In this document: piece after piece, positions 9,355 to 31,427 of the stretch
Position numbering within the stretch: the first letter of the stretch is position 1
How the letters are laid out: each line of letters begins with the position of its first letter
DNA from: a virus
Direction: 5' to 3' (one strand)
Virus record (IMG/VR): IMGVR_UViG_3300037147_000102
Span: 1-47,923 of that record
Length of the DNA: 47,923 bases
Program-made: the position numbers and the translations under genes
Notes under the pieces: generated by a model
Databases searched by the model: none
What the model was told of the DNA's origin: nothing
What the model saw: the letters and a program-made list of their open reading frames with translations, nothing else

Positions 9355-9684
9355 ATGGCAAGAACAGCAAGTCTCAAACCGAAACGTGGTTTCCTAGACG
9401 GGTACAAGACTTACGATACGTCGAATGGGTTTGGTGATCCCGGCCAGTGGCGGCGAGAGTTTAATGATCGCATCGGCCTTGATGCCGCCCGTGAAGCGGT
9501 AGGTTCCAAGTCTCCCCGGTCGATTCTGGGCGTGAGTTTGTCCGCCCTATGGGAAGAAATCAGAGCCGCCTATCGCAAGCTGATGTTCAAATATCACCCC
9601 GATCAAAATCCTGGCATCGATACCACGATGTTCCGTAAGGTTCAGGGTGCCTACGAAATTTTGGAAGCAGAGTTTAAACGATGA
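9355..9684 (+). CDS. J-domain protein, 109 aa
   Basis: The C-terminal half is a J domain: SILGVSLSALWEEIRAAYRK ... FKYHPDQNPG ... VQGAYEILE, with the invariant HPD between helices II and III. The first ~50 residues (GFLDGYKTYDTSNGFGDPGQ) are unrelated. J domains stimulate DnaK/Hsp70 ATPase; phage copies can redirect the host chaperone. Its stop overlaps the macro-domain gene by four bases, so the two are made together. Leaderless start. Confidence 0.85.
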   Translation: MARTASLKPKRGFLDGYKTYDTSNGFGDPGQWRREFNDRIGLDAAREAVGSKSPRSILGVSLSALWEEIRAAYRKLMFKYHPDQNPGIDTTMFRKVQGAYEILEAEFKR

Positions 9685-10292
9685 CACAAAAAGTTTTCAA
9701 GACATCCACTGGCAAAGAGAAAGTCATTGACCTTCAGTTCGGGGATATCGCCAAGATTCCAGCCGAAGCAATAATTACGGCGATCAATCCGGGCGGCGAT
9801 TGGTACGGTGGAATTGATAGTGTGATTTATGGCCACTGCGGCAAACAATTTCACGACCAAGCCGAAGCCGCTATGCCGCTTCAAGACAAACAAGTTGTTG
9901 TCGCCAAAAAGAAGACGTCACATGACGCCAAGTTCACCGATGTCATCTTCGTGGTGGATGCTCTTAAAGTCTTCTTGAATCAAATCATCCAAGCGGCCCT
10001 CAGTGGCGCTAACACTTACGGCTACAAGCATGTGAGCCTTCCGGCGATCCGAACCGGCGTCATGCTAGGTGTGGTCGAGCCGAATGCAGAACAGGCCGTC
10101 ATCCAATTGCTTCGTGGCATCGATCAGCATTTCGTGGATTTCCCGGATAGCACGGTCGAACACATCACGTTCGTCATCTGGGAGCCAACGATTCTGCTGG
10201 TATCGGAGACCTTCAGTAATGAAAACAACCCCACACCCCAAAGTATCGGCGGGCGGCTTAAACAGAAGTTGCTGAACGGAGTCACTAATTGA
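9681..10292 (+). CDS. Macro-domain protein, 203 aa
   Basis: Contains the macro-domain core: LQFGDIAKIPAEAIITAINP then GGDWYGGIDSVIYGHCG, i.e. GDI, the Asn-containing strand and the GG-I/V-D loop that contacts ADP-ribose, then LPAIRTGV corresponding to the second binding loop. Macro domains bind or hydrolyse ADP-ribose derivatives; a phage copy could reverse ADP-ribosylation or sequester NAD-derived defence signals (inference). Residues ~175-203 are a tail. ATGA overlap with the J-domain gene. Confidence 0.75.
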   Translation: MTQKVFKTSTGKEKVIDLQFGDIAKIPAEAIITAINPGGDWYGGIDSVIYGHCGKQFHDQAEAAMPLQDKQVVVAKKKTSHDAKFTDVIFVVDALKVFLNQIIQAALSGANTYGYKHVSLPAIRTGVMLGVVEPNAEQAVIQLLRGIDQHFVDFPDSTVEHITFVIWEPTILLVSETFSNENNPTPQSIGGRLKQKLLNGVTN

Positions 10293-16380: not shown

Positions 16381-16386
16381 TTGTAT

Positions 16387-17064
16387 ATGCGGTGTACCAA
16401 TCAAATCGCCAAGGCAACCTTCGGCAAAAAGGGTGGCAAAACTAAACTTATCCGTCGCCGCCCGGAGTGGAAAGACTCACCCGATGTCCGAACGAACACA
16501 TTCGGAAAACATATCCCGACTACAAGGGACGGCAATACTACAAGGAACGGCAATTTACTGAAGACCAACTACACGCTTGTTCCTGATGACGCTGGCGTGA
16601 TCTGGTCCCAATGCCCTGGCACTCTCAAAATCAACATCGAAGCTTATGATGAAGCCGAGTGGGGCGGTTCCCACGCCAAATTGAAAGTGACGTTCGAGTG
16701 CTCCCATTGTGGGCCGAACGAACTCTGGACGCCAGCTACGCTTCCATCCGACTTTGATTTAGTTGCATGGGTGAACACATTGATGAACCAAGTGGAGACG
16801 GTTCCTTTCAAAGACGTACAGCAAATTGACCGGGAAAAAAGTGCAGTCCAAAAAGCACTCATCCAAAAGCTCCGTGCCGAAGGCATGGCCGATGGAGGTG
16901 TCATTGTCGCAGCGACAGGTGCGCTGTCAATGACTGCTGAAGAACAATTGATAATGACGGCTAACCGCATCATCTACGATTTCATCCAAAAACGTCACAA
17001 CAAGAACGATCCGAATTGGACTCACGTGAACATGGAGAATGCTAAAGAGGCCGGGTTACTGTGA
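16387..17064 (+). CDS. Hypothetical protein, 225 aa
   Basis: ATG 16387 is exactly six bases after the -10; a TTG two codons earlier is also in frame. The basic N-terminal ~60 residues include a tandem repeat (TRDGNTTRNGN; DNA 18-bp repeat at 16520-16555). A middle beta part contains CSHCGPNELW, and the C-terminal ~110 residues are helical (QIDREKSAVQKALIQKLRAE). Function unknown. Confidence 0.6.
   Translation: MRCTNQIAKATFGKKGGKTKLIRRRPEWKDSPDVRTNTFGKHIPTTRDGNTTRNGNLLKTNYTLVPDDAGVIWSQCPGTLKINIEAYDEAEWGGSHAKLKVTFECSHCGPNELWTPATLPSDFDLVAWVNTLMNQVETVPFKDVQQIDREKSAVQKALIQKLRAEGMADGGVIVAATGALSMTAEEQLIMTANRIIYDFIQKRHNKNDPNWTHVNMENAKEAGLL
16520..16555 (+). repeat. 18-bp tandem repeat inside a gene
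   Basis: CTACAAGGGACGGCAATA followed at once by CTACAAGGAACGGCAATT; in frame, duplicating a Thr-Arg-x-Gly-Asn unit. Confidence 0.85.
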
Positions 17065-17429: not shown

Positions 17430-17655
17430 AATTTACTCTTACTGCGAGACCGTGACGGCAAGTGGCGCAACCCCATGGCACATCCGCAAGCTAACGAGTG
17501 TCGGAAGGAAGTTAGGAGGCGGTGCAGATACGCCAGCGTTGTGTGGACGCAAGGTTGCATGGGATCTCGAAGTCCCGGTGCTCACAAGCTCGAAAACCTT
17601 CCGTGACACAGCATGCAAGAAATGCGTCGAAGCTTTCGGTGAAAGGACTAGGTAA
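17419..17655 (+). CDS. Hypothetical Cys-pair protein, 78 aa
   Basis: ATG 17419 lies 11 bases inside the previous gene. ALCGRKVAWDLEV and CKKCVEAFGERTR provide a possible zinc site near the C-terminus; this C-terminal layout (C-G-x-x-V-x-W-D ... C-x-x-C) is common in small phage proteins. The 3' end overlaps the minus-strand endolysin-like gene by eight bases. Confidence 0.55.
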   Translation: MQAEIYSYCETVTASGATPWHIRKLTSVGRKLGGGADTPALCGRKVAWDLEVPVLTSSKTFRDTACKKCVEAFGERTR

Positions 17656-18334
17656 GAGTTCCGGCCCGCTCTGAGACCAATTCTGCTACAGCGTCTTTGT
17701 GTTCGTTCACAACTCGATTTCTAACGGACGCACGAATCGCCGGAGTCTGATTTTTGTATTCTCGCCCTGTATCAATGCGCTTCAACTTTTGAGCATAAAT
17801 GGCGTCGATCAAAACACCATCGTCTAAAGTCGAAATCGTCTTCAGGACATTCAAAGTGCAGAGCGTGTCAAAGACCAAGCCGCAACAACCGGCACCAGAA
17901 GACTTTACAACACCGGGTCCTGCCATCACCGCCAGCGAATAGATCACGTCGGCCAACGTCTTGCTCCGGGGTGGGGTGGCGAGATTGATGTTAGCCAGTG
18001 CCAACCGCTTGATGGTCACGCCGTACATGCGATCCACAATGAAATCGTGCTGGGCGTCTGTGAATTGTTGGGTGTTCGTTTTGGCTTGATTTTCCCAAGC
18101 CGCTTTGAAATTGTCAGTGCCCCTTATCGCCGCCGAGTTGCCGCCAGCGGTCTGTAAGGTCTTCCAGATGCTCTGGTAGTTCCCTTGCAAGAAGGTCATG
18201 AAGGTATTAAAGGTTCCACCTTTGGTTTCGATTTGGTTGATGCCATAGCTCCAGCCGCCGCCCGAGTCATAGCCAATCGCCCCTGGATTGCCATCGGATT
18301 CATACTTTGCTGATAGTCTGCCAATTTCCCACAT
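17648..18334 (-). CDS. Endolysin-like peptidoglycan hydrolase, 228 aa
   Basis: N-terminus GRLSAKYESDGNPGAIGYDS then GGGWSYGINQIETKGGTFNT is a lysozyme-like/transglycosylase signature with Glu in YESDG as the likely catalytic acid and G-G-W-S-Y-G-x-x-Q-I as the substrate strand. The remaining ~180 residues are helical. No signal peptide, so release would need a holin, or it may be a virion lysozyme. AGAGGATG precedes ATG 18334. First gene downstream of the divergent promoter at 18368; convergent with 17655. Confidence 0.72.
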   Translation of the reverse strand: MWEIGRLSAKYESDGNPGAIGYDSGGGWSYGINQIETKGGTFNTFMTFLQGNYQSIWKTLQTAGGNSAAIRGTDNFKAAWENQAKTNTQQFTDAQHDFIVDRMYGVTIKRLALANINLATPPRSKTLADVIYSLAVMAGPGVVKSSGAGCCGLVFDTLCTLNVLKTISTLDDGVLIDAIYAQKLKRIDTGREYKNQTPAIRASVRNRVVNEHKDAVAELVSERAGTLT

Positions 18335-18686: not shown

Positions 18687-18950
18687 ATGAGGCACGATTC
18701 TAATGAACCAACTAGAAATGGTGATCTCAATAAACTAGCCTGCCGCTGCTGCGATTCCCACTACACAGCAACAAATTTTAATGACCCCAATGAACCAACT
18801 AGAAATGGCGATCTCAATAAACTAGATGAGCAATGCATTCCAGCTTCATCTCATAATTCAGAAGTGGATCTCAGCAAAACACAGATGATTCTTTTAGAGA
18901 AATGTACATTGGGACAGTCAGCTTCTTTGCGGCTGATCGATTTTGATTAG
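18687..18950 (+). CDS. Hypothetical protein with internal duplication, 87 aa
   Basis: Two copies of NEPTRNGDLNKL separated by a Cys-rich linker (ACRCCDSHYTATNF). The underlying DNA is a 37-bp direct repeat (18702-18738 and 18789-18825, one mismatch). The C-terminus (LSKTQMILLEKCTLGQSASL) is helical. Convergent with, and four bases from, the tape-measure gene. Confidence 0.55.
   Translation: MRHDSNEPTRNGDLNKLACRCCDSHYTATNFNDPNEPTRNGDLNKLDEQCIPASSHNSEVDLSKTQMILLEKCTLGQSASLRLIDFD
18702..18825 (+). repeat. 37-bp direct repeat, period 87 bp
   Basis: AATGAACCAACTAGAAATGG plus 17 further bases recur at 18789 with a single T/C change; the period (87 = 29 codons) keeps frame. Confidence 0.9.
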
Positions 18951-21900
18951 GTCGGGCTGTACATCGCATCCATGTTGCGTTGATACGTTGACTCTGTATT
19001 CTTAGCGCTCAACTCTGCCACCGAAGTGCTATGGTTGTTCGTGACTGAACTCTGCGGAGCGAACACGTTTCCACCGGCCTTCGGTGGTTCCAATGCTGCC
19101 ATCTTCATCATGGTTGCGTTAACGGTCGATTGCTGCGCAAGCTGTGGACCACTGGTAGGTGAAGGTGGCTGCATCGTTGGACCCCCCGTATTCATGGCGA
19201 CTGTTGTGGGTTTGGGTGTGGACAATTTTTCTGGCACATTGGTTTCTGGTGCATAATTGGTGGCGGTATATTGGTTTACTTGGTTCAAGAGTTTGCCTAA
19301 GTATCCTTCATCACCGGGCTTGATTGGACGGCCTGCCACCACACTGGTCATGACCGCATCAATGTCCTTTTGTGAGCCTGATTGCAAATCCACACCCATC
19401 TTCTGGGCCATTATTTTTCTGCCTCTATCAAGATAGTCTGCGGCAATTTGTGCGGCTACATTTGGATCATTCGCCAAATCTGGATCTTTAACTAAACGGT
19501 CGTCTCCAAAAATTGATTTGGATGCGTCGCTATATTGTTGTTTTCCAGTAAGCTGAATGAATCCCCGACCACGATATTTCCAAGCATCTCCCTTACTGGT
19601 GTTGCCCATTCCACGGCCAATTTTATTGCCGCCGCCATACATGACTTCAGCAAATTTCTGAGGATCTTTTTTCAATTCATTCAATTCTTCGTCGGACATA
19701 TTGGTTCTTGCTTTTCCGAAAATTGTCTTTATTTTATTATTATCAGTATGTGAATAATCTATATGTTCACTTTGAGAAACGAAACGAGATTCTTTGTTGA
19801 TGTTGCCCATTGATGCAGCAATTTCTTTTTCGTTGAATCCTTTCTTTTTTAATGCAGCGATGATGAGTGCGACGTTTTTGTTTTTATTGTTCTTCGTCGG
19901 TGCATTCGGTGTAGCGGGTTTTGTATTGGTGGGTACCCGTTGTGGTGCCGGTGTCGTTGCCGGTTTGTTTTTGGGATCATATTGGTCGTATGATTTTGTT
20001 AGTGCTCCATTGCCAGTGACGGTATCGTACAATTTTCCGCCTAACCAGTCACCCCCTATAGCTCCAGCCGCCCCACCAACAAACTCGCCGCCCATACCCA
20101 CAGTGGCAAGCCCACCCAAGATGCCACCGCCAATCATTCCGATTTGCGATCCAATAGCTTTTGTTATGGCCTTTCCTGTGGAATCTCCCGATGCCTTGTT
20201 GATTGCATAATCAGCTAATGCACCAATAACAGGTATCCATTTTGTTAATGACTTCGCTCCAACCTTTACTGCGCCTTTGGCTACAGCTTCCCCACCTTCT
20301 TCGACGGTTTTGGTGGCGGCTTTGCCCAATCCAAATTTTCCTAACAATTTGCCGATAAGACCACCGGCACCTTTTTCAGTGACTTTCTCTGCTCCAGTTT
20401 CCGCAGCTTTTTCACCCGTTTTAAATAACTTTCCGATACCAGGAAGTTTACTGACACCCGGAATCTTTCCGAGAAGCTTTCCTAGTTTTCCAACACCAGG
20501 GATTTTGCTTAGCAGCGAAAGCCCACCGCCCCATTCAAGGCCATCCATCGCAAAGTCTTTGATAGTATTGAGCCAGCCGCCGCCTTTCTTATCCTTACCA
20601 CCCTTACCACCACTCCCACCCAAAATACCTTCACCAGCCAGCCCAGCGCCTACGCCGAGTTCGCCACCCGACCCCTTTGTCTCACGACGTTTGGCTTCAG
20701 AATCGAGTTCACCTTGTTCGATTTGTTTCAGCAAATACTTGTTCATCGTGCGCAACTCTTCTAATTGTTGTTCGCCCAATTTTTCAAGCTTGGTGTCATC
20801 GCCGTGTAAAACACGAATGTCTGTGTCTTCCCACTGCTTTCCAAGTTCACTTAATAGATGTTCTGGGTCATGTGCTTTAGACTGATGTTGCTCTTGTTCT
20901 TCGGCGTCGATTCGTTCCGGTGATTCTTTGGAAGAAGTTTCTAAGCTGTCACCAAACATTTTGTGTGGTTTGGGACGGCTAGAATAATTGGCTACAGGAT
21001 CAGGTCCAAAGATGTCCTTGTCCATGAAGAAATCAAATCCAGGATCACCCGGTTTTAAAGGATTATTCTTGTGTTTGTCGGATTGTTCCTGGGTACGTTG
21101 CTCCTGTTGAAGCTGCATGTCACGCATCCAAGCCATTTTCTCAGCGTCGGCCCGTTCTTTCTTGGGTTTTTTCAGATTCTCTTGCCAAGAATCATCGACC
21201 TTGAATTTGTGCCCACCATAGACAACATAGTCCTTGCCTTCAATGCCATCAGAATTTTGTGATGCGGATGTTCCCGCTGGTGGCATGTTGAACACTCTGG
21301 TGGGTTCGGGACCGGGAGTTTGTGGCTGAGCGGCAGTACCCCCGTTACGCACATTTCGATCTTTCTGAATTCTTTGATCCAAAGGAGTATAATGCGGTGG
21401 AATCCACAGACTGGACATCTGTTCATGTTGTTCTGGTGTGATAGAATTTTGCGCACGAAGATTCTTCAGTAGATTAAAACGCTGATCGGGGTCCTCAGTT
21501 GACTTAATAAATTTATTCAAAGTCTCGTTGTCTAGTTTGAGATCCTTATTTTCGACTTCAGGTTCCATCTTACGTGGAAGATTTTTTTGGAGTGTCTGAG
21601 AAACACGAAGATTCTTGTTTTTTGCTTCTTGCTTCGTTTCCTGGTGTCCTTTAATCTTGTCTAGGATGTATTTGGTAGCCAAGCCAGCGAGAGGTGAATG
21701 GGCCGTCAATCCAGCGACAATGCTAGTGATGTTAATTGCATTCTCACTGAAAGCTTGCTGAATCTTCCCAAAGGTGCTCTTTCGCATTTGGGTTTCTTCC
21801 ATCAATACTTTTTGTAATTGAATGGCATGCTTGGTAAGAAGGGCTTGTTCATCCCCACGGGTGTCAAGCTCAATGTTCTTGCGAAGACTGTCTACTTGAT

Positions 21901-22435
21901 CTTTGAGTTTTTGTAGTTCTTTGAAGTCGGCTTTCTGAACGCTATCAACAATGTCGTCAATCTCACCAGCGTGAGAAAGACCCTTACTGGTAAAGACCTT
22001 TCCACGTAGCTCTTTATCACGGCTCTGTTTATCGTTCTTACGCTTGCTGGCGAAGACCCGATCCATCTGGCGGTCAACCCGATCCGAAAGCTTTCGGAGT
22101 TTTTCAAATTCGTCCTGTTGCTTCTTGATTTCTTGTTCGGGACTCGTGGCCTTAGCGCTAGAGGAACTCGGACGGCGATAGGATTTGGGTGTGCTTGGCT
22201 TTCCCATATCTCGTTGTTGATGACCTTTCCAACTGTCAGAATCATCATCGCTTTTGGCATCTTTAAGAGTATCTTCAAGATCATCCATGCCTTGATCGAA
22301 GGCTTCTTCAATGCCCTTCTTGAGCTTGGCCGTGATGTCTTTAATGAGACCATCTTTTTCGACAAGCGCCAGCTTTGAAACATCAATCTGATTCAAGTCT
22401 ACGCCGTTGCTGGTGGTCTTATTATCTAATGGCAT
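18947..22435 (-). CDS. Tape-measure-like protein with GH19 muralytic domain, 1162 aa
   Basis: Long charged helical N-terminal half (residues ~1-560; many Lys/Glu/Gln), then a Gly-rich hydrophobic amphipathic stretch (~640-800: IPGVGKLGKLLGKIPGVSKL, IGMIGGGILGGLATVGMGGE) typical of tape-measure membrane segments. Next is a GH19 chitinase-like/lysozyme domain (~860-1010): ASMGNINKESRF with the catalytic Glu, and WKYRGRGFIQLTGKQQY, the GH19 signature. A Pro/Thr/Asn-rich tail ends it. Located right after the tail tube and gp26-like chaperone genes, where the tape measure normally lies, five bases after the 53-aa frame. It should set tail length and open the cell wall at infection. T4's counterpart gp29 lacks GH19. 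Confidence 0.82.
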   Translation of the reverse strand: MPLDNKTTSNGVDLNQIDVSKLALVEKDGLIKDITAKLKKGIEEAFDQGMDDLEDTLKDAKSDDDSDSWKGHQQRDMGKPSTPKSYRRPSSSSAKATSPEQEIKKQQDEFEKLRKLSDRVDRQMDRVFASKRKNDKQSRDKELRGKVFTSKGLSHAGEIDDIVDSVQKADFKELQKLKDQVDSLRKNIELDTRGDEQALLTKHAIQLQKVLMEETQMRKSTFGKIQQAFSENAINITSIVAGLTAHSPLAGLATKYILDKIKGHQETKQEAKNKNLRVSQTLQKNLPRKMEPEVENKDLKLDNETLNKFIKSTEDPDQRFNLLKNLRAQNSITPEQHEQMSSLWIPPHYTPLDQRIQKDRNVRNGGTAAQPQTPGPEPTRVFNMPPAGTSASQNSDGIEGKDYVVYGGHKFKVDDSWQENLKKPKKERADAEKMAWMRDMQLQQEQRTQEQSDKHKNNPLKPGDPGFDFFMDKDIFGPDPVANYSSRPKPHKMFGDSLETSSKESPERIDAEEQEQHQSKAHDPEHLLSELGKQWEDTDIRVLHGDDTKLEKLGEQQLEELRTMNKYLLKQIEQGELDSEAKRRETKGSGGELGVGAGLAGEGILGGSGGKGGKDKKGGGWLNTIKDFAMDGLEWGGGLSLLSKIPGVGKLGKLLGKIPGVSKLPGIGKLFKTGEKAAETGAEKVTEKGAGGLIGKLLGKFGLGKAATKTVEEGGEAVAKGAVKVGAKSLTKWIPVIGALADYAINKASGDSTGKAITKAIGSQIGMIGGGILGGLATVGMGGEFVGGAAGAIGGDWLGGKLYDTVTGNGALTKSYDQYDPKNKPATTPAPQRVPTNTKPATPNAPTKNNKNKNVALIIAALKKKGFNEKEIAASMGNINKESRFVSQSEHIDYSHTDNNKIKTIFGKARTNMSDEELNELKKDPQKFAEVMYGGGNKIGRGMGNTSKGDAWKYRGRGFIQLTGKQQYSDASKSIFGDDRLVKDPDLANDPNVAAQIAADYLDRGRKIMAQKMGVDLQSGSQKDIDAVMTSVVAGRPIKPGDEGYLGKLLNQVNQYTATNYAPETNVPEKLSTPKPTTVAMNTGGPTMQPPSPTSGPQLAQQSTVNATMMKMAALEPPKAGGNVFAPQSSVTNNHSTSVAELSAKNTESTYQRNMDAMYSPT

Positions 22436-22440
22436 TCAGT

Positions 22441-22602
22441 TTAACTGGCGGCTTTCTTTTGTTGCTCCAGCCGATCATTTTCCTCTTGGACGTACTGCGT
22501 TATAATCTTCAGATAGGCATCACGTTCCCAAGGGATCATTCCTTCTATCTCAGCCAACGAATATTTATGATGAAAAGTTAGAGTGAAATTCGTCATAAAC
22601 AT
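22441..22602 (-). CDS. Frameshift partner of the gp26-like chaperone, 53 aa
   Basis: Small frame between the gp26-like and tape-measure genes: starts MFMTNFTLTFHHKYSLAEIE, then GMIPWERDAYLKIITQYVQE and a Gln/Lys-rich tail. The IPWERDAY motif followed by a helix is a recurrent feature of small frames at this place in T4-type genomes. It has no ribosome site of its own. The frame is open upstream to the slippery site T TTT TTC (22641-22635), so a -1 shift produces a 338-aa fusion with the gp26-like protein. It can thus be a separate peptide, a fusion extension, or both. Confidence 0.72.
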   Translation of the reverse strand: MFMTNFTLTFHHKYSLAEIEGMIPWERDAYLKIITQYVQEENDRLEQQKKAAS

Positions 22603-22628
22603 ATTCGGGAGTGAATTATGACTGAGAG

Positions 22629-23456
22629 CTACCCGAAAAAATCCGTTAATCCTTCTAAGTGTATTGTTTGTTGAAAGTTACACTTGTCACATTGAAATGG
22701 AAGGTCATGCACCAACTTGGGCATTGTTTCAAAGAATTCCTGGATTTTGGCAAACTGTTGTTGAGTCAGCTTTTCAATCCATTCTGTGATTTCCTTGAGT
22801 AGGAAATTAGAGTAGACATTTTCGCCGTCGAAAACAGATTCAACGCACATGGCAACCGTTTTGATCGTATTTTCGATGTCGGTGCCCAGAGTCGTCTCTT
22901 TGTTTTTTTGACTCTCATTGAGCATCCGAGTCACGTCAATGCCCGGATACTTCATGGTAAGACCCATTGCATCTGTAAGGAAGATGGTCTTCGTGTGAGC
23001 CGGATTGATTTGAACTTTCACATCCCGGAGATCAAGACGAATTTTGACAATGTTATCGCATGACCCGATCACTGGTTGACCTTCATCTAATGCCTCAACT
23101 TGCTTTTTGAATCGCACAGAAGACATCCGGCGTTTAATTTCATCAGACGACAGTTCGGTTTCGTTATGGCACTTATAAGCAAGCTCAACGAATTCATTGA
23201 CCGAGTTGGCACGCAATTGAATAAACAGATAGTCAAGATCAAAATTGGCCAGAGAAGAAACTTTGACGGGAGAGATGGCGCAAGATGAAACAATTTGGGA
23301 AACGGCTTCATGCATGGAATGGTCATCACCCGCCAGTGCGATGAGCAATAATTTCTCTTCCTTCACAAGGAAGGGACGCATCTTTATAGATTTTTCGGTA
23401 GAGGGGACGACAACATCAAAGATCGGGACGATTTTTTCAAGGTTTGGAAGAGGCAT
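22629..23456 (-). CDS. gp26-like baseplate hub/tail chaperone, 275 aa
   Basis: Matches the T4_baseplate (gp26) family: KIVPIFDVVVPSTEKSIKMR, PFLVKEEKLLLIALAGDD, IVSSC, LANFDLDYLFIQLRANSVNE, then the L/I-rich regions of the family, ending with a CDKCNFQQ Cys pair and LTDFFG. T4 gp26 is 208 aa and helps assemble the hub. The location between tail tube and tape measure is that of lambda gpG-type chaperones. The last codons GAT TTT TTC GGG TAG contain a -1 slippery heptamer. Confidence 0.85.
   Translation of the reverse strand: MPLPNLEKIVPIFDVVVPSTEKSIKMRPFLVKEEKLLLIALAGDDHSMHEAVSQIVSSCAISPVKVSSLANFDLDYLFIQLRANSVNEFVELAYKCHNETELSSDEIKRRMSSVRFKKQVEALDEGQPVIGSCDNIVKIRLDLRDVKVQINPAHTKTIFLTDAMGLTMKYPGIDVTRMLNESQKNKETTLGTDIENTIKTVAMCVESVFDGENVYSNFLLKEITEWIEKLTQQQFAKIQEFFETMPKLVHDLPFQCDKCNFQQTIHLEGLTDFFG
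22635..22641 (-). promoter_or_regulatory. Slippery heptamer T TTT TTC for -1 frameshifting
   Basis: On the minus strand the zero frame reads GAT TTT TTC GGG TAG; tRNAs on TTT and TTC can re-pair on TTT TTT one base back. The -1 frame then runs CGG GTA GCT CTC AGT... without a stop into the 53-aa frame. The site is two codons before the stop of the gp26-like gene. Confidence 0.75.
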
Positions 23457-23499: not shown

Positions 23500-24240
23500 T
23501 TAGGCAGCACCATCAGGTCCGAAATTTACTCCGGCTTTTTGTGTGACAGTTTGATTGAACACCTGTGTATTCATCACGGGAGTACCCGATGCTGCCGAAG
23601 TTGACCGAATAGTTCTTGCAAACTGATAATTGAACGTCACTTCCATTGACATGACGGTGTTGGTTTCTTCATAGGAGAGAGAAATTGGCGAGACTGAAAT
23701 GGGATAGGCTCCCCATAACGTGATTTCATATTGCACCGTGTCTAGCACATCGTATTGGTCTATGAAAATGTTACAGGCGTATTCCGTTCTGTAATTGAAA
23801 TTGTTTGAGATCGGGTCCATCACCATGTTCATCCATGCGTCAAAGAAGAACTTTTCCTTCATGTCCGCCCCACAGAAGAACGTCATGGTGATATCCGACC
23901 ATTCTGGCATGTGAGGAAACTTAAATCCAGGCCCGTAGATTCTTTGTACATCGGTTTGAAACTGGTAACCCGGAAGCTGTGTCTTCTCACAGAAAGCGGA
24001 GAGACGGATGATATCCATGTTTCCAGTACTCATGGAATTAGGCACGCTGAAGAGTTCCATACCCATCCAATCCGTTCCGTCTGTGTCGGGAAATTCAGAC
24101 CAAGCTTTAATTGCATCAGAAATGGTAGTAGAAGCACTTGTCAATGTCGTAGTAGGAATGAAAACCTGAAAACGATTTGGACGTGCAAATCCACTCGCTG
24201 TGTTGATTGTAGAAAGAAGATTAGACAAGGATGCTGGCAT
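23500..24240 (-). CDS. gp19-like tail tube protein, 246 aa
   Basis: Shows the T4 tail-tube architecture: N-terminal FARPNRFQVFIP, then IRLSAFCEKTQLPGYQFQTD, MTFFCGADMKEKFFFDAWMN, and ITLWGAYPISVSPISLSYEE followed by the final strand MEVTFNYQFART. Such proteins stack as hexamers to form the inner tail tube. Longer than T4 gp19 (163 aa) by an insert at ~35-75, so a tube-initiator (gp54) role is possible but less likely. A CTAAATATT box ends five bases before the ATG. Confidence 0.85.
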   Translation of the reverse strand: MPASLSNLLSTINTASGFARPNRFQVFIPTTTLTSASTTISDAIKAWSEFPDTDGTDWMGMELFSVPNSMSTGNMDIIRLSAFCEKTQLPGYQFQTDVQRIYGPGFKFPHMPEWSDITMTFFCGADMKEKFFFDAWMNMVMDPISNNFNYRTEYACNIFIDQYDVLDTVQYEITLWGAYPISVSPISLSYEETNTVMSMEVTFNYQFARTIRSTSAASGTPVMNTQVFNQTVTQKAGVNFGPDGAA

Positions 24241-27299: not shown

Positions 27300-28088
27300 A
27301 TGACCAAACAATTTCATTTTTACAAAATAACCAATACAATAAACGGAAAATCTTATGTGGGGTACACCGGGCAATATCACGCTACTGCCCGATGGAAACA
27401 ACATTTGGCCGCAGCAAAACGGGGAGAATCACAAGTTCTCTATGACGCCATAAGAAAACACGACGCCAAAAATTTTATTTTTGATGTTTTGAGTACGTTG
27501 GAATTAACACCAGAACAAGCAATCCAAAAAGAAACGGCTTACATTTACGAGCACAAAACGCTTGTTGGAGAAAATGGGTACAATATTAAAGCCGTGGATG
27601 GAGTGTATTCCGAATCCGTTAAGCAAAGTAAATCAGAACGAATGAAGGCTTATTACGCCAGTGGTGGCACACACCCTATGAAAGGGAAGGTGCATTCAAC
27701 AGAAGCAATTCAAAAAATGAGTACAAGTCATCTTCAAATGAGTGAAGACACAAAAGAAAAAATTGGTGAAGCGTCCAAGAAGATGTGGCAAGATCCGGCC
27801 AGTCGTCAAAAAATACTGACTCATGTTCAAAATCCGTCTCCTACGACACGTCAGAAAATGTCCAAAGCCAAACGAGGGAAGCCCTCTTGGAATAAAGGCA
27901 AGCCCAATACCTGGACTGCACTTCATCGTAGCCGTATCTATGTTGTGACTACACCGGATGGAAAAGAAATTACAGTCACTAATTTAAGAGCTTTCGCTGT
28001 GAAAAATGGATTGAGTCAAGGCACTCTTCACATGACGGCCACCGGCGCACGGGCCGCACACAAAGGGTATCGTGCTCGCTTTCTTTAA
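27300..28088 (+). CDS. GIY-YIG homing endonuclease, 262 aa
   Basis: N-terminal GIY-YIG nuclease: FHFYKITNTINGKSYVGYTG (residues ~5-24), with the Arg of TARWKQHL and the Glu of KETAYIYEHK as catalytic residues. The middle ~100-200 has NUMOD3-like GGTHPMKGKVHS and SEDTKEKIGEASKKMW repeats; the C-terminus (EITVTNLRAFAVKNGLSQGT) is a NUMOD1-type DNA-binding helix-turn-helix. Inserted after the gp48-like gene as free-standing Seg-type enzymes are in T4. AT-rich compared with its neighbours. Confidence 0.9.
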   Translation: MTKQFHFYKITNTINGKSYVGYTGQYHATARWKQHLAAAKRGESQVLYDAIRKHDAKNFIFDVLSTLELTPEQAIQKETAYIYEHKTLVGENGYNIKAVDGVYSESVKQSKSERMKAYYASGGTHPMKGKVHSTEAIQKMSTSHLQMSEDTKEKIGEASKKMWQDPASRQKILTHVQNPSPTTRQKMSKAKRGKPSWNKGKPNTWTALHRSRIYVVTTPDGKEITVTNLRAFAVKNGLSQGTLHMTATGARAAHKGYRARFL

Positions 28089-29295: not shown

Positions 29296-29373
29296 TGGAG
29301 CACCCGGTCAGAATCGAACTGACTAGTCATCGGCTTTGCAGGCCGTGGCCTCAACCATTTTGGCTTCAGGTGC
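29296..29373 (-). tRNA. tRNA-Cys (anticodon GCA), copy 1
   Basis: Acceptor GCACCTG/CGGGTGC, T-arm GTCAG-TTCGATT-CTGAC, anticodon loop C-T-GCA-A-A, discriminator U73 and encoded CCA. U73 is the cysteine identity base. One mismatch at the base of the anticodon stem. Confidence 0.8.
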
Positions 29374-31352: not shown

Positions 31353-31427
31353 TGGAGCCGGGTGGAGGAATCGAACCTCCGATTAAAGGATTTGCAATCC
31401 TCTACCTTTCCACTTGGCGAACCCGGC
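31353..31427 (-). tRNA. tRNA-Cys (anticodon GCA), copy 2
   Basis: Acceptor GCCGGGT/ACCCGGC, T-arm GGAGG-TTCGATT-CCTCC, anticodon loop T-T-GCA-A-A, U73 and encoded CCA. A different sequence from copy 1, so not a recent duplication. Confidence 0.88.

Follow-up and report, generated by a model that had tools for sequence, protein, structure and literature searches.

A conserved slippery heptamer and an open -1 frame suggest a two-form tail assembly chaperone in a T4-like phage

The tail assembly chaperones of T4-like phages were reportedly identified by Vladimirov, Gautam and Davidson (Virology 2022, PMID 34826709), in a paper whose title stresses a mechanism other than frameshifting in these phages, which counts against the reading put forward here. 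According to papers that cite this work, a short gene and a long fusion gene occur together in some T4-like phages (PMC10885494), and poly-T slippery sequences occur in the TAC-N genes of T4-like phages (PMC12846349). We read the short and long genes of these citations as probably being gp26 and gp51, a reading supported by the profile and phrog_150 matches of the T4 proteins given below. In T4, both proteins are classed as chaperones of hub assembly; gp51 is described as essential, with its function unknown, and is reported to be needed for assembly yet absent from the virion (PMC3004832). The G/GT frameshifting of phage lambda has been called a conserved feature of long-tailed phages "except T4" (PMC5009743). 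A conserved poly-T sequence has also been found, together with an open -1 frame, toward the end of TAC-N in many genomes of the Vandenendeviridae and Andersonviridae, the group of phage Adele (PMC12846349); the stretch of DNA analyzed here resembles that description, although the motif there is GTTTTT and the phages belong to another group.

The stretch in question, hereafter the window, is the 47,923-nucleotide IMG/VR record IMGVR_UViG_3300037147_000102. In it, a short and a putative long chaperone form and a poly-T site can be recognized, as in the T4-like phages of Vladimirov et al. 2022 as cited. The features of the locus are as follows:

23500..24240, minus strand: tail tube protein gene, upstream of the gp26-like gene (phrog_45 tail tube, E 7.2e-36; PF23849, E 4.5e-06)
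23456..22629, minus strand: gp26-like gene, short form (TAC-N), 275 aa (PF12322, phrog_150, predicted fold)
22650..22656, minus strand: Shine-Dalgarno-like AGAAGGA, candidate stimulator, 8 nt upstream of the heptamer (anti-SD duplex -4.8 kcal/mol)
22641..22635, minus strand: slippery heptamer T_TTT_TTC, one sense codon before TAG (sequence and conservation in relatives)
22635..22441, minus strand: -1 frame extension from the last base of the heptamer, 64 codons plus stop (translation; conservation of the peptide in relatives, starting at its first codon)
22629..22631, minus strand: zero-frame stop TAG, end of the short form (sequence)
22590..22625, minus strand: candidate downstream hairpin, core GTCATA/TATGAC, starting about 9–12 nt after the heptamer (fold)
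22602..22441, minus strand: gp51-like 53-aa frame within the extension, hub assembly catalyst domain (phrog_634, phrog_150)
18947..22435, minus strand: 1162-aa gene, downstream (phrog_181 endolysin, E 1.2e-24; phrog_1047 tail associated lysin, E 1.1e-8)

The gp26-like ORF was assigned to the gp26 family by its profile match to PF12322 (T4_baseplate, E 2.5e-54), and it also matched phrog_150 (baseplate hub, E 5.3e-58). NCBIfam gave no match to gp26 or gp51, and a PDB sequence search found nothing. On the minus strand, the 3' end of the ORF reads ACG GAT TTT TTC GGG TAG, which places T_TTT_TTC in the correct X_XXY_YYZ phase. Following a slip, the -1 reading would continue as CGG GTA GCT CTC and so on, and would remain open over 64 codons, including the 53-aa ORF, up to a stop, with the peptide RVALSHNSLPNMFMTNFTLTFHHKYSLAEIEGMIPWERDAYLKIITQYVQEENDRLEQQKKAAS. 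The long form (TAC-NC) would thus have 338 aa, made up of 274 zero-frame codons and 64 in the -1 frame. The 53-aa frame matched phrog_634 (baseplate hub assembly catalyst, equivalent to gp51) with E 3.8e-18; it also had a weak match to the C-terminus of phrog_150 (E 0.0025). Five bases lie between its end and the 1162-aa gene, whose ATG is at 22435. An earlier note on this DNA had described a perfect heptamer at the end of the gene, a -1 frame leading into the 53-aa frame with a 338-aa product, and the five-base gap, all of which were confirmed from the sequence and its translation.

With 17 occurrences in the window against 21 expected, the string TTTTTTC is not rare, and the count of heptamers is not evidence in itself. 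An in-phase X_XXY_YYZ of any kind within the last 10 codons was present in 10 of the 242 window ORFs of at least 60 aa. The gp26-like ORF had the longest open -1 frame among those 10, with 64 codons, followed by 41 and 14. The locus lies between a clear tail tube gene upstream and a gene that matches tail lysin and endolysin families downstream; the latter may be a tape measure or a tail lysin, the tape-measure role being suggested only by its position. Beyond this large tail gene, at 17648-18334, there is a match to a VgrG3-like C-terminal domain, as in type VI secretion spikes (PF21277, E 1.4e-24).

We consider it very likely, with a probability of about 0.92, that a T4-like phage makes its tail assembly chaperone in two forms from this locus, through programmed -1 frameshifting; the sequence features, their conservation and the homology are observed, and from them the frameshifting, its rate and the protein roles are inferred. 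Most ribosomes would end at the TAG and yield the 275-aa gp26-like short form, while a fraction would slip by -1 on T_TTT_TTC, where the Phe-tRNAs in the P- and A-sites would re-pair from TTT-TTC to TTT-TTT. The slipped ribosomes would read on through the gp51 domain to give the 338-aa long form, probably aided by the upstream anti-SD-like stretch and the downstream hairpin. By analogy with lambda G/GT, the short form may coat the tape measure and the extension of the long form may recruit tube subunits or the hub.

A gp26 relative is encoded in 863 phage records. When viral contigs were searched with the window gp26 as a single protein, no relatives could be confirmed, and a broad alignment contained no conserved block fit for searching, but alignment queries did find relatives. 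Loci from IMG/VR and GenBank were selected for their resemblance to gp26 or the gp51 extension, irrespective of the heptamer, and conservation was counted over 173 distinct loci, which are related by descent and hence not independent trials. An in-phase T_TTT_TTN was present 0–3 codons before the stop in 164 of the 173, and exactly one codon before it in 153. This indicates that the signal in the window is real. The last heptamer base is C in 135 of the 164, T in 25, G in 3 and A in 1. Phe-Phe is preceded by S, N, D, A or G, in each case encoded by a codon with T at its third position, and the first Phe is encoded by TTT without exception. The -1 frame was open in all 173 loci, with a median of 63 codons versus 7 for the +1 frame. 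Among reference phages, T_TTT_TTC is found in S-RIM44, S-PM2, P-HM1, S-CAM7, BUCT608 and KVP40, and T_TTT_TTG in phiM9 and P10VF; in all of these, one sense codon separates the heptamer from the stop, and the -1 frame continues uninterrupted into the gp51 domain. The window's extension was matched best by the -1 frame peptide of Synechococcus phage S-WAM1 (53% identity). In that phage, the gp51 domain (L097, 2508-2692) is not annotated as a gene.

Nine of the 173 loci, all of Ackermannviridae type, lacked the heptamer (L009 near 3666, L010 near 3786, L011 near 3579 and L182-L196 near 2301), while a gp51-like peptide can still be read without a stop in their -1 frame. These loci have G_ATT_TTC, A_CTT_TTC or G_CTT_TTT in place of the heptamer; a T_TTY tetramer remains, on which a single tRNA may slip, though more weakly. 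The -1 peptide of PhiSH19 (L010) matched phrog_634 (E 0.0028), and the gp51-like frame of this phage is unannotated. Conservation of the heptamer, its phase and the open frame, which the earlier note had proposed as a check, thus holds in close and distant relatives; of the observations that it had named as speaking against a frameshift, stops in the -1 frame do not occur among the 173 loci and loss of the heptamer is confined to these nine loci.

Elements that might stimulate the slip were found on both sides of the heptamer. Over the 164 loci, the mean anti-SD binding of the 21 nt before the site was -6.5 kcal/mol, compared to -4.9 kcal/mol for synonymous recodings, whereas the difference in an interior control was +0.16. 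Consistent with this, the Glu of an EG motif is coded by GAG in 89 of 124 cases versus about 34 expected. On the downstream side, RNAalifold found no common consensus hairpin over 150 ungapped sequences, because the stem register differs between clades, as illustrated by GTATGGCTCA/TGAGTCATAC versus GTATGGCGCA/TGCGTCATAC in two related groups (pair tables for these two registers serve as illustration only). Structure was therefore tested sequence by sequence against synonymous recoding. The 48 nt past the slip site form a more stable structure than do synonymous variants encoding the -1 peptide (mean z -1.98, with 55% at p<=0.05), compared to a mean z of -0.03 and 7.5% at p<=0.05 for a control stretch 24 codons further on. 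A dinucleotide-shuffle test was less clean (mean z -1.66 versus -0.74 in the control). The downstream stem reaches 14 bp in S-PM2. In the window, the hairpin gave p 0.04 against synonymous recoding; it is weaker than in most cyanophage relatives, and together with the Shine-Dalgarno-like element weaker than in most relatives overall. The stimulators thus exceed chance expectation for the family, but only modestly in the window itself.

T4 offers a comparison in which homologous short and long forms are present but are encoded by two genes on opposite strands, genes 26 and 51, without a heptamer, as opposed to the single locus with a heptamer in the window. A profile of the fused product matched T4 gp51 along its length and across the junction (E 3e-8, hmm 23-282 of 297), as it did phiAS4 gp51 (E 1.1e-17), whereas T4 gp26 was matched over the short part only (E 1.1e-21). 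Independently, the PHROGs grouping assigns both T4 proteins to phrog_150, in which gp51 reaches the end and gp26 stops at the junction. By these profile and phrog_150 spans, T4 has one gene for each form, gp26 being the short form and gp51 an in-frame fusion. T4 gp26 retains Phe-Phe, coded within GAG TTC TTT, but has no heptamer. The pair is thus retained for the protein, and the heptamer only where the long form depends on it. The -1 frame of T4 gp26 is also open, for 135 codons, because it probably reads into the overlapping gene 25. An open -1 frame by itself is thus weak evidence.

A different explanation would be that gp51 is a separate small gene, with its own start or coupled to the gp26 stop, and that the heptamer is incidental. 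Public records usually give gp51 as a separate CDS, and in several phages an ATG overlaps the gp26 stop; in KVP40, phiM9 and BUCT608 the junction is TAATG or TGATG, and independent initiation of gp51 could supplement or replace frameshifting there. However, the first ATG in the -1 frame is scattered over the loci, from codon 1 to codon 33 past the slip site, and 65 loci lack one within the first 18 codons although the peptide is conserved over this part (RIALFHNTLEGYYKTNFA and similar), with the position dependence expected of codons (entropy 0.89, 0.78 and 1.45 at positions 1, 2 and 3). A protein started at an ATG would miss this early peptide, which argues against a separate start. Nor would an incidental heptamer be expected to persist, with unvarying synonymous choices, in 164 of the 173 loci, and in T4 and phiAS4 the gp51 domain is made only as part of a fusion. 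A ribosome site belonging to the 53-aa frame alone, which the earlier note had regarded as contrary to its proposal, was not evident in the window: the gp51 ATG lacks a Shine-Dalgarno sequence (anti-SD duplex +0.1 kcal/mol), although this is weak evidence because the gp26-like and downstream genes also lack one. We therefore consider a separate gp51 gene improbable.

Even less probable is slippage of RNA polymerase on the T6 run, in which an added base would give an edited mRNA from which the fusion is translated. Six or seven T are indeed present in every heptamer case, but six-base runs are short for polymerase slippage. Furthermore, the run is always in the X_XXY_YYZ phase that slippage by tandem tRNAs needs (the phase being limited also by the Phe-Phe constraint on the protein), and the flanking anti-SD-like stretch and hairpin are stimulators of the ribosomal kind. 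Conservation, phase and the open frame instead support the originally proposed mechanism, a ribosomal -1 frameshift that would fuse the gp26-like chaperone to the downstream frame.

The predicted model of gp26 (pLDDT 94.2) has Phe-Phe at the end of its C-terminal helix, which the extension would continue. The N-terminal ≈88–90 residues of the model could be superimposed on the HK97 tail assembly chaperone, gp13 (2ob9), with Z 7.8 over 85 residues. Other fold matches were 3fgx (Z 8.2) and YqbN (3klu, Z 6.8), compared to 3.0 or less for unrelated entries; a plain Foldseek search against the PDB was not significant, with 2ob9 ranked second at E 1.0. These comparisons support a shared fold between the predicted N-terminal domain of gp26 and the HK97 chaperone, a likeness at the level of the fold and of that domain only. 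The proposal that gp26 and gp51 belong with classical tail assembly chaperones is thereby backed, as it is by the in-frame fusion of both parts in T4 gp51. Lambda G/GT and the window have the same order of tail tube, chaperone, -1 extension and next tail gene. The heptamer differs, however (T_TTT_TTC in the window), the extension is shorter (64 aa), and the window chaperone is larger than that of lambda, with domains beyond the HK97-like N-terminal one.

As far as the citations show, this unification is already in print, and the suggestion that frameshifting was undescribed for T4-type gp26 does not stand, since the chaperones and poly-T sites have been reported (PMC10885494, PMC12846349). To this, the present analysis adds how widely the signal is conserved, its fixed distance from the stop, the stimulators and the codon control provided by T4. 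Frameshifting is well known in other tailed phages, and the window offers no new mechanism but a further strong example, in which the signal is richly conserved. In hundreds of cyanophage and other T4-like genomes, gp26 and gp51 are annotated separately, or gp51 is missed, as in S-WAM1 and PhiSH19; they are probably one frameshifted gene. Frameshifting with a three-part signal, consisting of the anti-SD-like stretch, T_TTT_TTN one codon before the stop and the hairpin, may be the ancestral means of making the long chaperone in T4-like phages, including cyanophages, KVP40 and rhizobial phages; the two-gene layout of T4 would then be derived, the long form having become its own gene and the heptamer having decayed. 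We regard the odds on this scenario as even; its stimulators may be undescribed. The T4-like phages would then provide a natural comparison of two ways to set the ratio of short to long chaperone.

Several other features were observed in the window. A GIY-YIG and NUMOD3 protein, likely a homing endonuclease, is encoded at 27300-28088, adjoining a gp48-like tail tube cap gene. The protein encoded at 7337-7921 matches the S-adenosylmethionine lyase family (PF23780, E 7.7e-13), an enzyme type with which phages counter host defences, and a Macro domain protein (PF01661, E 8.8e-05) is encoded at 9681-10292. The small ORF at 18687-18950 contains the segment NEPTRNGDLNKL twice, and related wording (TRDGNTTRNGNLLK) recurs in a 227-aa ORF at 16381-17064. 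Two tRNA-Cys genes, both with anticodon GCA, lie about 2 kb apart on the minus strand (29296-29373 and 31353-31427), and two tRNA-Thr genes are located at 2076-2232.
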